IMG/VR virus record: IMGVR_UViG_3300046724_000209
Span: 1-20,253 of that record
Source of the DNA: a virus
Length of the DNA stretch: 20,253 bases
Reading direction: 5' to 3' (one strand)
Position 1 is the stretch's first letter. The number at the start of each line of letters is the position of its first letter. The position numbers and the translations under genes are program-made. Under the pieces are notes generated by a model that saw only the letters and a list, made by a program, of their open reading frames with translations, searched no databases and was not told where the DNA came from. Shown in pieces: positions 1,982 to 7,380 of this stretch.

Positions 1982-2563
1982 TCAATCATGGCGTGGTGAT
2001 AGGCAATCGAGGTGCACTGAGACGTTGCGGAGGTGACCGAACATGAGGATGGCGACGCGTGCGATGGTGGCGCCTACATCGGTGACGACGGCGTCGGCTC
2101 CCTCCATAGGATGCCCTTTCCGAAGCCTACAAGGCATGCCGGGCGCCCATTGGGAGATTTGTGGGGTTGGGGTAGCCCTCAGCGCCTCGGTGGCCTGTAG
2201 CACGTCCACGGCGGCGTCTGGGCAGGTGGCTGGTTTGCCGTCGAAGCTGACCAGCGAGAAAACGCCTGGGGCGTAGGTGACGGGCGACCAGGGGCGATCG
2301 AGGCGCATGTTCACGAAGCAGTAGCCTGGGAACAGCGGGCGGGTGTGCCAGGTGCGGTCGGCCCAGCGGACGGTGATGAGTGGGAGATATGCGTGGAAGC
2401 CGACGCGGTGCAGGGCGGCGTGGGCGCGGCGTTCGGCTTGTGGGTAGGTGGCGACGACGCACCAGACGGGACGGCTACCGCTAGGCACTTGGCAGCGCTC
2501 GTAGGCTGCTGCCGCGTCCTGTTGTGGCAACGCTACTGCCTGAATTGTGGCGGCGTCAAGCAT
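1982..2563 (-). CDS. NusG/RfaH-family transcription elongation factor
   Basis: A 193-aa protein with the full two-domain plan of NusG paralogues. The N-terminal NGN domain (~30-110) contains WCVVATYPQAE, then a YLP segment, then RPLFPGYCFV, then APGVFSLVSFDG, the order seen in NusG, RfaH and LoaP. The C-terminal part (~140-190) has a KOW-like pattern: PCRLRKGHPMEGADAVV, later MFGHLRNVSVHLDCL. Such proteins bind RNA polymerase and suppress pausing or termination on chosen operons. It is encoded after the replication genes and before the methyltransferase fusion and terminase, so it may act on the late region (inference). ATG 2563 overlaps the previous gene by 8 bases and has no strong ribosome site. 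Confidence 0.85.
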   Translation of the reverse strand: MLDAATIQAVALPQQDAAAAYERCQVPSGSRPVWCVVATYPQAERRAHAALHRVGFHAYLPLITVRWADRTWHTRPLFPGYCFVNMRLDRPWSPVTYAPGVFSLVSFDGKPATCPDAAVDVLQATEALRATPTPQISQWAPGMPCRLRKGHPMEGADAVVTDVGATIARVAILMFGHLRNVSVHLDCLSPRHD

Positions 2564-3077
2564 CTACAGGCGGGCCGCGCTTGGTTTCCGTGCGGATCGG
2601 CGTGGCCGCTGCCTTGAGTGGGGGTAGTTCAGCGAAGCCAAGTTCTGCGAGTTGCTGTGCGATGGTGCGGACTGGTTTCTGGATCAGCTCATGGATTTCG
2701 TCGCGGGAGAGGCGCCCTAAGTGGCGAGGCGTCCGCTCGGGAGGCGGTGACGGTAACTGGTAGGGCTCGCGGCTTTCGGTGGCCGGCGGCCGTCCTGAGT
2801 ATTCAATCCGAAGCCGTCGCTCCTCTCGCGCTGCTTGGGCGAATGGCGCGAGCACTTCGCAGATTTCCCCGAATCCTGGGAAATATCTCAGGTGCTTCTT
2901 GGCGACGGCGCGAACTGTCGCGGCGGTAAATGCCTCGACGGGAAATTCCTCCGCGAGTGCGGGAGCGAGCAGATCTAACCGAAGCTCCACCTCCTCCTTG
3001 CCGATTCCGTAGCCGTTGATGCCGGCGAGAAGCGTCAGCCAGTCGTGGACGATGTTGGGGTCAGCCACGGCTGCCAT
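2556..3077 (-). CDS. Unknown protein, possible helicase loader-type replication protein
   Basis: A 173-aa protein of unknown family. The N-terminal half is helical and acidic, with a KKHLRYFPGFGEICEVL segment at ~60-78. The middle (~95-125) is Pro/Arg-rich and probably unstructured, and the C-terminal half has another helix (IAQQLAELGFAELP). A protein of this size directly after an initiator-like gene recalls the O/P arrangement of lambdoid phages, where P loads the replicative helicase. That comparison rests on position and general helical plan, not on a clear motif. ATG 3077 is chosen; a TTG at 3083 and a GTG at 3068 are alternatives. It overlaps the end of the initiator-like gene by 17 bases, so it is probably translationally coupled. 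Confidence 0.7.
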   Translation of the reverse strand: MAAVADPNIVHDWLTLLAGINGYGIGKEEVELRLDLLAPALAEEFPVEAFTAATVRAVAKKHLRYFPGFGEICEVLAPFAQAAREERRLRIEYSGRPPATESREPYQLPSPPPERTPRHLGRLSRDEIHELIQKPVRTIAQQLAELGFAELPPLKAAATPIRTETKRGPPVDA

Positions 3078-5620: not shown

Positions 5621-6370
5621 ATGGAAAAGATCAACGATGTCGGCTGCGGCACGTCTTTTGCCCATTTTGCGCCCCCGAGCGGGTCCGACAGTCCTGGCGA
5701 GATAGGCGCGCCCGCGGCAAGTCTAGTCCCGCCACCACACTGCAATGCAAGCGGGCATTGCGCCCCCGACCGTAACATTGCAGTTGCGCAACCCGGTAAT
5801 TCTACGTCAATCACCGTGGTTGCGCCGGGTTACAGCCCGGTAATGTCGCGCCATCACAGCAAAAATTCTGCGCCCGTCCTCAACTTCGCACGCGCAGCGG
5901 AGGGCGCCCGTGTAGCCGCAAAGTTCTGCGCTACAAGCCCAAGCAGGAAAAACTTGGGACAGGATACAGCCCATGGCTCAGCGACCTCGCGCGGTGACCT
6001 ATGCGACAGCGATGGACGCTCTGCTCGACGCCTACCTGACATTGCGCGAACTCCTGGCGGCACCGATCAACCAGGACATCCGCGAGCCACTGGTGTTGTT
6101 GCGGGATCGGCTGGAACTCGTCGTAGCCAGGGACAACGGCCGCCGTCGCTACTAGCCGGCACCGACCGCATCGACCACGCACTTGCAGCAGAGGGCGCGC
6201 GTGAGGCCGCCCGCCTGATCCGCGCCGCGCGGCGCCGCGATCTTCTAGCTGCAATTGAAGAGTGGCGCCGCGCATCCGGCCCCGACCGCGCCTACTGGCG
6301 GAGCCATGGCGGTTACCTCATCCGCGAGTGGCGCCGGCTCTATCCGCACCACTGGGAGGCCGCAGCATGA
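5621..6370 (+). CDS. Long open frame of doubtful extent; its C-terminal third looks like a real small protein
   Basis: The frame is open for 249 codons from an ATG five bases after the rightward -10. The first ~115 codons have no recognisable domain. The middle overlaps a more convincing 60-aa gene in another frame and looks like its shadow (Arg/Gly/Pro/Ser-rich). The last ~70 residues look like authentic protein: EGAREAARLIRAARRRDLLA, then EEWRR, then YWRSHGGYLIREWRRLYPHHW. They end in an ATGA overlap with the methyltransferase start. No ATG, GTG or TTG lies close before that segment. Options are one long protein, a leaderless N-terminal gene plus a tail whose start was lost, or a -1 frameshift joining the 60-aa gene to the tail. 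Function unknown. Confidence 0.35.
   Translation: MEKINDVGCGTSFAHFAPPSGSDSPGEIGAPAASLVPPPHCNASGHCAPDRNIAVAQPGNSTSITVVAPGYSPVMSRHHSKNSAPVLNFARAAEGARVAAKFCATSPSRKNLGQDTAHGSATSRGDLCDSDGRSARRLPDIARTPGGTDQPGHPRATGVVAGSAGTRRSQGQRPPSLLAGTDRIDHALAAEGAREAARLIRAARRRDLLAAIEEWRRASGPDRAYWRSHGGYLIREWRRLYPHHWEAAA
5973..6155 (+). CDS. Small helical protein, unknown function
   Basis: A 60-aa protein with AGGA about 9 bases before ATG 5973. Residues ~14-52 are predicted amphipathic helix (MDALLDAYLTLRELLA, then IREPLVLLRDRLELVV). The composition is normal, unlike the overlapping longer frame. No family recognised. It may be joined to the downstream tail segment by a frameshift, since that tail has no start of its own. 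Confidence 0.6.
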   Translation: MAQRPRAVTYATAMDALLDAYLTLRELLAAPINQDIREPLVLLRDRLELVVARDNGRRRY

Positions 6371-6372
6371 AC
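6360..6372 (+). repeat. 13-bp direct repeat at the methyltransferase start (copy 1)
   Basis: CCGCAGCATGAAC contains the upstream stop and the methyltransferase ATG. An identical copy at 7370-7382 contains the methyltransferase stop and the next gene's ATG. The two copies bracket the cassette exactly. Confidence 0.8.
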
Positions 6373-7380
6373 CTGCTCGACCTGTTCAGCGGCATCGGCG
6401 CCTTCAGCCTCGGCCTGGAGCGCAGCGCCGCATTCCGCACCGTGGCGTTCTGCGAGTGCGACCCGTTCTGCCGGCGGGTGCTAGCGAAGCACTGGCCCGA
6501 GGTGCCCTGCTATGACGACGTCCGCACGCTCACCGCAGCCCGCCTGGCAGCAGACGGAATTTCCGTGGATGCAATCTGCGGCGGCTTCCCCTGCCAGGAC
6601 ATTAGCGTTGCGGGAAGAGGCGCCGGTATCGGCGGCGAGCGCAGCGGCTTGTGGTCCGAGTTCGCGCGCCTCATTGGCGAGCTACGACCCCGCTACGTCC
6701 TCGTGGAGAACGTCGCAGCTTTGCTTGGACGGGGGATGGGAGTTGTTCTCGGAGACCTTTCCGCGCTCGGGTATGACGCGGAATGGCAAATTATATCCGC
6801 AGCCGACATGGGCGCCCCGCACAGGCGGGAGCGGGTCTGGATTGTGGCCTACCCCGGTGGCGAAGGACGACGGGAAGTCGTTCGAGGGGCACATGGCGAT
6901 GAAGGAGCGCATGGGCCGCAACACCTGCAGCTCGCTTGCGGTGATGGCGCGCAGCGGGATGTGGCCGACGCCGCACGGCTTCAGTCCGGACGGTCGGAGC
7001 AACGGGCCGAGCGGGAACGAACTGGGTCGGGCGGTGAACCGCTCGCTGTGGCCGACACCATCGGCGCGCGACTGGAAGGGCGCCCCGACCTCTCTCGCGA
7101 CGCTGCCGACCAACAGCCGCCCGCTGAACAAAGCGGTGCGGTTCCCGACGCCGGGCGGCTCCCGCCCGCACGATACGGACGAGGTCTCGGGGAGGCTGGC
7201 GAACGAGATTGGTGGCTCGTTGAACCCGACGTGGGTCGAGTGGCTCATGGGGTTGCCTCTCGGGTGGACCGACTGCGGTCCCTCGGCAACGCGCTCGTCC
7301 CGCAAATTCCCGAAGCCATAGGCCGTGCTATCGGAGCGTCCACCGTCTCCCGCACCGCACCAACGGAAACCGCAGCATGA
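6367..7380 (+). CDS. DNA (cytosine-5) methyltransferase
   Basis: A 337-aa C5-cytosine methyltransferase. Motif I LFSGIGAFSLGL is at ~6-17. Motif IV GGFPCQDIS is at ~72-80, with the nucleophile Cys77. Motif VI is YVLVENVAALL at ~110-120, motif VIII GAPHRRERVWIVA at ~149-161, and motif X is LGNALVPQIPEAIGRAI near the C-terminus. The region ~165-290 is the variable target-recognition part and holds VADA-type repeats. ATG 6367 has GGGAGG 8 bases upstream and lies in an ATGA overlap. From 6512 to 7321 the same DNA is also open in another frame that encodes a second family-like protein. No partner endonuclease is seen, so this is probably a solitary phage methyltransferase that protects DNA from host restriction. 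Confidence 0.95.
   Translation: MNLLDLFSGIGAFSLGLERSAAFRTVAFCECDPFCRRVLAKHWPEVPCYDDVRTLTAARLAADGISVDAICGGFPCQDISVAGRGAGIGGERSGLWSEFARLIGELRPRYVLVENVAALLGRGMGVVLGDLSALGYDAEWQIISAADMGAPHRRERVWIVAYPGGEGRREVVRGAHGDEGAHGPQHLQLACGDGAQRDVADAARLQSGRSEQRAERERTGSGGEPLAVADTIGARLEGRPDLSRDAADQQPPAEQSGAVPDAGRLPPARYGRGLGEAGERDWWLVEPDVGRVAHGVASRVDRLRSLGNALVPQIPEAIGRAIGASTVSRTAPTETAA
6512..7321 (+). CDS. Overlapping second-frame protein of the 'WPTP / NPTWVEWLMG' type
   Basis: A 269-aa ORF wholly inside the methyltransferase gene, one base ahead in frame. ATG 6512 has GAGG about 9 bases upstream. It is not a featureless shadow. Residues ~58-96 read YDPATSSWRTSQLCL, then FSETFPRSGMTRNGKLYPQP. LWPTP-type boxes occur at ~111, 150, 179 and 210. 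The end contains GGSLNPTWVEWLMGLPLGWT at ~234-253. I recognise this motif set from phage ORFs that are often labelled hypothetical or methyltransferase-related; its function is unknown to me. Because methyltransferase motifs VI, VIII and the pre-motif-X segment are also intact in the other frame, both frames appear to be constrained. Confidence 0.65.
   Translation: MTTSARSPQPAWQQTEFPWMQSAAASPARTLALREEAPVSAASAAACGPSSRASLASYDPATSSWRTSQLCLDGGWELFSETFPRSGMTRNGKLYPQPTWAPRTGGSGSGLWPTPVAKDDGKSFEGHMAMKERMGRNTCSSLAVMARSGMWPTPHGFSPDGRSNGPSGNELGRAVNRSLWPTPSARDWKGAPTSLATLPTNSRPLNKAVRFPTPGGSRPHDTDEVSGRLANEIGGSLNPTWVEWLMGLPLGWTDCGPSATRSSRKFPKP

Follow-up and report, generated by a model that had tools for sequence, protein, structure and literature searches.

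To our knowledge, the arrangement in which the two subunits of one enzyme are read in two frames was previously known from one or two enzymes. In a 1995 report on M.EcoHK31I, the small chain is said to be encoded in another frame inside the gene of the large chain. M.EcoHK31I (YGGCCR) is a natural two-polypeptide cytosine-5 (C5) DNA methyltransferase with motifs I-VIII and X on the large chain and motif IX on the smaller one, and its recognition domain is predicted in the large chain (PMC3404938). M.AquI (CYCGRG) is composed of two polypeptides as well, its small chain comprising motifs IX and X and half of the variable region (PMC3404938). A search of the open-access literature found no report of the two-frame phage methyltransferase family described here.

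The virus record IMGVR_UViG_3300046724_000209 (20,253 bases; this whole stretch of DNA is called the window below) contains a locus that probably encodes a two-subunit C5 DNA methyltransferase of the M.EcoHK31I kind, both subunits (here alpha and beta) being read from one DNA stretch in two frames. Sequence comparisons show selection on both frames, the division of the motif content between them and the resemblance to single-chain enzymes. Compared by published motif layout rather than by sequence, the window enzyme resembles M.EcoHK31I in having motifs I-VIII and X on the large chain and motif IX on the small one. The nested gene reportedly present in M.EcoHK31I also has its counterpart here, as beta (6512-7321) lies in the +1 frame within alpha (6367-7380) and is selected. 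However, the constrained recognition region of the window enzyme is in the small chain, whereas that of M.EcoHK31I was predicted in the large one; furthermore, M.EcoHK31I is part of a restriction-modification system, whereas the window gene is found in a virus record. With M.AquI the locus shares the natural split into catalytic and recognition chains, and the versions of phages Sebastisaurus and Kampy, in which beta has motifs IX and X, match it; in the window, by contrast, a nested beta is combined with an alpha that has motif X. M.HhaI-type single-chain enzymes have motifs I-VIII and X in the same order, and a single-chain member of the family models onto M.HhaI, but the window enzyme is divided between two frames.

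The locus and the proposed enzyme

Features of the locus are as follows.
6354-6359 (+), Shine-Dalgarno-like site of alpha, GGGAGG, 7 nt upstream of ATG 6367 (from sequence)
6367-7380 (+), alpha, putative large subunit of the C5 methyltransferase, 337 aa; ATG 6367, stop 7378-7380; motifs I-VIII and X, without motif IX
6379-6399 (+), alpha motif I, DLFSGIG; columns invariant in alignment A4
6499-6504 (+), Shine-Dalgarno-like site of beta, GAGGTG, a 6-base match 7 nt upstream of ATG 6512
6512-7321 (+), beta, 269 aa, +1 frame within alpha; ATG 6512, stop 7319-7321; WPTP units (putative recognition region) and motif IX
6580-6600 (+), alpha motif IV, GGFPCQD, with the catalytic Cys; invariant in alignment A4
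6674-6841 (+), dual-constrained segment, alpha motifs VI-VIII over beta residues 55-110 (SYDPATSSWRTSQ..SGMTRNGKLYP); both frames above shuffles, drop of the third-position rate
6845-6856 (+), beta WPTP unit 1, VAYP in the alpha frame (from sequence)
6856-7206 (+), putative target recognition (TRD) region selected in the beta frame, the alpha frame being a shadow; fixed-beta shuffles and codon-position rates
6962-6973 (+), beta WPTP unit 2, VADA in the alpha frame (from sequence)
7049-7060 (+), beta WPTP unit 3, VADT in the alpha frame (from sequence)
7142-7153 (+), beta FPTP unit 4, VPDA in the alpha frame (from sequence)
7220-7273 (+), beta motif IX, LNPTWVEWLMGLPLGWTD; motif IX HMM and hhalign, both on homologue sets
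7261-7332 (+), alpha motif X, RVDRLRSLGNALVPQIPEAIGRAI; motif X HMM

The initial annotation had described both open reading frames, the overlaps of their motifs and a repeat at four positions (about 6845, 6962, 7049 and 7142), and all of these are correct on the sequence, as are the ribosome sites that it placed at both starts. Alpha ENVAALL (from 6706) is opposite beta RTSQLCL (6707-6727), alpha GAPHRRERVW (6811-6840) is opposite beta WAPRTGGSGSG (6809-6841), and at 7217-7252 WWLVEPDVGRVAHG is opposite SLNPTWVEWLMG. Elsewhere in the window, an open reading frame on the minus strand (713-1960), inspected by eye, has a ParB-like N-terminus followed by an N6/N4-type DNA methylase and would be a second methyltransferase of the virus record.

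We propose that alpha provides the catalytic and AdoMet-binding part of the enzyme (motifs I-VIII, a spacer and motif X). Beta would be translated from the internal ATG at 6512 with its own ribosome site and would form the small-domain part, made up of a new N-terminal segment opposite motifs VI-VIII, of WPTP units in tandem as the variable recognition region, and of motif IX. Binding of the two chains would give the equivalent of one M.HhaI-like enzyme. Such a heterodimer would be active, would methylate a specific site, with the WPTP units reading the DNA, and methylation would probably shield the phage DNA from host restriction.

Division of motifs between alpha and beta

Both proteins were searched against databases separately, a check suggested by the initial annotation. 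The match of alpha to PF00145 is limited to residues 1-163, the part with motifs I-VIII (E 2.5e-41), and alpha also matches phrog_363 (E 4.1e-82). Beta matches phrog_1008 (E 1.6e-33); no family was found for it in Pfam or NCBIfam, and no PDB sequence was matched by its profile. Both phrog families are labelled DNA methyltransferase, but these labels are silent on the common origin of the two proteins from one DNA stretch; phrog_1008 also spans the C-terminal part of single-chain enzymes.

Alpha has motifs I, IV (PCQ), VI (ENV), VIII and X in one chain, as C5 methyltransferases (PF00145) do. Motif IX, present in the same chain in enzymes of the single-chain type, was absent from alpha when sought with the canonical motif IX HMM, and the alignment of the alpha profile with ordinary enzymes was confined to residues 1-165. 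Ordinary relatives end, in one frame, with RRLTPLECERLQGFPDGWTE (motif IX) followed by RYRMLGNAVCVPVAEWIG (motif X), and near the C-terminal end of beta the consensus is GGxLNPTWVEWLMGFPxGWTDL. HMMs for both motifs were built from the motifs of ordinary relatives and applied to 118 alpha/beta pairs with a cut-off of at least 5 bits. The motif IX HMM found 66 of the 118 beta proteins but none of the 118 alpha proteins and no shuffled sequence, the window beta being weak (1.5 bits); the motif X HMM found 67 of the 118 alpha proteins (window alpha weak, 3.2 bits) and no beta. When the beta profile was compared with canonical methyltransferases (hhalign), the motif IX region was aligned with E 5.8e-4 and a probability of only 29%, so that the profile match of beta to motif IX is statistically modest, and weak for the window protein itself. 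M.AquI-type small chains with motifs IX and X can be recognised by eye in relatives (e.g., Sebastisaurus gp35), whereas the window beta lacks this combination.

The initial annotation had regarded beta as a second motif-rich protein. Its frame is indeed a real, selected one, but, judged from the sequence, beta is not an unrelated protein: it carries the motif IX and the variable recognition region that are missing from alpha. A separate function of beta, for example as a regulator or an anti-restriction factor, with alpha being active alone, would fit the N-terminal segment of beta (SSWRTSQ..SGMTRNG), for which no counterpart is recognised in classical methyltransferases and which is conserved in single-chain relatives. 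We nevertheless consider this improbable, since alpha would then have to work without motif IX and without a constrained recognition region, while beta holds exactly these missing parts and resembles single-chain enzymes in the corresponding region. When modelled alone, beta gave a poor model (pLDDT 60, pTM 0.30); a chain that needs its partner for folding would behave in this way, but the poor model is no proof of it.

Start of beta

In a set of 51 homologues that were retrieved by alpha, not by beta, a start codon with a ribosome site was present at the beta start in 16 (4.0 expected). The position of the start drifts among the homologues; 30 of the 51 have an ATG at one of the two likeliest positions, versus 20.4 expected. 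Instead of starting on its own, beta could be produced as an alpha-beta fusion by a programmed +1 ribosome shift during translation of alpha. Indeed, the upstream part of alpha has no +1 stop in 12 of the 51 homologues, the frame being open far upstream, and the catalytic part and the recognition region are joined in single-chain relatives. However, beta is constrained across motifs VI-VIII, a segment that would be lost or never translated in a fusion made there, start codon and ribosome site are enriched at its start, and split two-gene versions exist. A shift of this kind is therefore unlikely, and internal initiation of beta as part of a two-subunit enzyme remains the reading that we prefer.

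Selection on the second frame

The initial annotation had proposed true dual coding of about 800 bases, and had named many stops or missing constraint in the second frame of homologues as evidence that would speak against it. The opposite was found. Across 126 distinct homologues from viruses, 423 stops were counted in the +1 frame, half of the 857 expected from synonymous-codon shuffles, whereas the +2 frame is not depleted (1768 versus 1665 expected). The longest +1 open reading frame has a mean of 237-281 codons in viral homologues (G+C content as low as 45%), compared to 85-155 expected. Similarly, 69 bacterial-genome loci have 144 stops in the +1 frame versus 367 expected. The length of the open frame in the window alone was dropped as evidence for dual coding: its 279 codons lie within the range of synonymous shuffles of the window gene (mean 175, maximum 336) and are not significant because of the G+C content of 68%.

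We then kept the alpha protein constant, shuffled its synonymous codons and rescored the similarity of the second frame to the window beta. In the 51 homologues the median similarity decreased from 120 to 44 bits, with a drop in all 51, and each of three segments (beta residues 55-110, the PTP region and motif IX) scored above shuffles in most of them. The +2 frame also exceeded its shuffles (121 versus 72 bits). This is expected because two constrained frames fix all bases, and the shuffle margins therefore exaggerate the +1 effect. For the same reason the +2 frame was dropped as a negative control for similarity, and the region upstream of beta and ordinary C5 methyltransferases were used instead. 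Upstream of the beta start, no excess was observed in the +1 frame of the 51 homologues (21.6 versus 20.4 bits in shuffles). Ordinary C5 methyltransferases (with conserved motifs VI-VIII and motif IX in one frame) had 13-25 bits of +1 similarity, near their own shuffles; in the overlap set the median was 55. The +1 frame at 6512-7321 within the alpha gene is thus confirmed, at the level of sequence comparison, as conserved and under selection, and stop depletion, protein-preserving shuffles and the pattern of substitutions over codon positions support true dual coding.

Substitution rates at the alpha codon positions 1/2/3, obtained from 51 independent homologue pairs, differ along the gene. 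Upstream of beta they show the ordinary wobble of alpha (0.155/0.107/0.449). Over motifs VI-VIII the third-position rate falls from 0.449 to 0.274 (0.190/0.086/0.274), and similar values are seen over motifs IX/X (0.192/0.099/0.255). In the recognition region (0.320/0.104/0.074) the free position is the third position of beta, and therefore beta is the protein selected there. With beta held fixed, the similarity of homologues over alpha residues 166-280 was no higher than in shuffles (18.5 versus 16.9 bits). As the substitutions follow beta, VADA/VAYP in alpha are a by-product of WPTP in beta. The view that the repeats serve both proteins is thus not upheld. Of the claim that both frames keep family motifs, the part on motifs VI-VIII and IX/X stands, these being the only segments with constraint in both frames, whereas the recognition region is selected in beta only. 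It had also been considered that the WPTP protein might be a frame-shadow of methyltransferases; the reverse was found, VADA being the shadow of WPTP.

A second frame that only mirrors the methyltransferase, with no protein product, would be in line with the high G+C content and with the unexceptional length of the window frame. It is very hard to reconcile with a two-fold depletion of stops in the +1 frame only, even at 45% G+C, with recognition-region substitutions that track the beta frame, with the loss of beta similarity on shuffling and with the little or no such +1 similarity of ordinary C5 methyltransferases.

Distribution and layouts

The initial annotation had assumed that such a gene would be rare. 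On the contrary, of 50,697 phage records at least 441 contain the overlap arrangement or a relative of it, as do more than 590 viral stretches and 313 genome stretches; it occurs in hundreds of phages, in E. coli prophages and in the genomes of bacteria from many phyla. By sequence, the two-frame arrangement is common in phages and prophages, and mostly overlooked by annotation. Decay of a single-chain enzyme through two compensating frameshifts is suggested by the resemblance of alpha plus beta to one chain with two frame changes and by broken alpha frames in phage Llama and a few other loci, but is hardly credible for a layout that hundreds of diverse sequences have retained and in which both frames are under selection.

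Three layouts can be distinguished. In the window, in E. coli prophages and in most of the loci from viruses and bacterial genomes, beta is nested and lacks motif X. In Sebastisaurus (34/35), Kampy (78/77) and Samy (49/50), two genes are annotated that overlap or adjoin each other, the second having motifs IX and X; high early transcription was observed for the Kampy pair (PMC4626039). The third layout consists of the single chains of actinophage relatives (e.g., Saroj gp68), with motifs I-VIII, PTP units, an IX-like segment and motif X in one frame. Their profile was aligned with the PTP and motif IX parts of beta with a probability of 98%. The short motif HMMs found neither motif IX nor motif X in these relatives, so the assignment of both motifs rests on the alignment and on a model. 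In this model, made for one single-chain relative (pTM 0.77), the match to M.HhaI spans the whole protein (257 aligned residues, Z 21.9, rmsd 4.2). Single-chain relatives keep a +1 open reading frame over motifs VI-VIII (45 versus 19 bits in shuffles, 44 of 44), although their motif IX is in the catalytic frame, so the N-terminal segment of beta seems to have a role beyond the two-subunit model. In the single-chain loci L166 (1037-1402), L169 (1184-1495) and others (L176-L230), this conserved frame over motifs VI-VIII contains one or two PTP units and has its stop just upstream of the place where the catalytic frame starts reading PTP units.

More tentatively, and with rather more doubt than confidence, these layouts may represent a phage-wide C5 methyltransferase family that was split into two subunits without a split of its DNA. 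Exchangeable WPTP units and motif IX would reside in the nested beta, and the same units in the catalytic frame of single-chain relatives; units that can be swapped between frames and subunits would let phages change their methylation specificity fast. In M.EcoHK31I-type enzymes, the recognition region would be located in the small rather than in the large subunit.

In the RefSeq/GenBank records examined, alpha alone is annotated in the nested type. The public records checked list a single gene for about 800 dual-coding bases whose conservation extends over hundreds of phages and prophages. When an annotated methyltransferase is cloned, beta would be carried along unnoticed; codon optimisation or recoding of alpha would ruin beta and might result in a dead enzyme. 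The family also offers a large natural set for the study of long overlapping genes, as within one gene the constraint first affects a single frame, then both, and further on only the other one, and it suggests the place where such phage methyltransferases hold their DNA specificity.

Several loci deviate in annotation or structure. In Microcystis phage Mwe-JY08 (L161, 392-652), part of the beta frame is annotated as a 'hypothetical protein', and the overlying methyltransferase frame is unannotated. In Mycobacterium phage Llama (L163, 2194-2953), a frameshift splits alpha into two annotated genes, gp74 and gp75, with beta unannotated in the next frame; gp74/gp75 were considered as alpha and beta, but this was rejected, gp75 being the second half of the frameshifted alpha. 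L020 and L068 have an in-frame alpha stop near motif IV or VI, with the nested beta frame open. Three E. coli prophages (L336, L338, L339) and a Citrobacter plasmid (L175) form a divergent group. The N-terminus of their alpha differs (YYNEIDP precedes motif I), the nested +1 frame ends in QLNPAHSRWLMGLP, and alpha alone is annotated. An M.EcoHK31I-like restriction system was sought in E. coli genomes; the four loci examined sit among phage genes, with no adjoining annotated restriction enzyme.

A second protein in another frame is also known from out-of-frame HNH insertions in a phage DNA methylase gene (PMC11855218); these, however, are inserted homing elements and not, as proposed for the window beta, an enzyme part. 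Insertions resembling them are present in L155 and L021, where HNH-like endonuclease sequences (recognised by eye) have been inserted downstream of the beta stop, between motifs IX and X; they are read in the +1 frame, and alpha remains open. In L008 (about 2302-3000), a LAGLIDADG-like sequence, also seen by eye, shares the frame of beta and lies between motifs IV and VIII, and the alpha frame is open there too.
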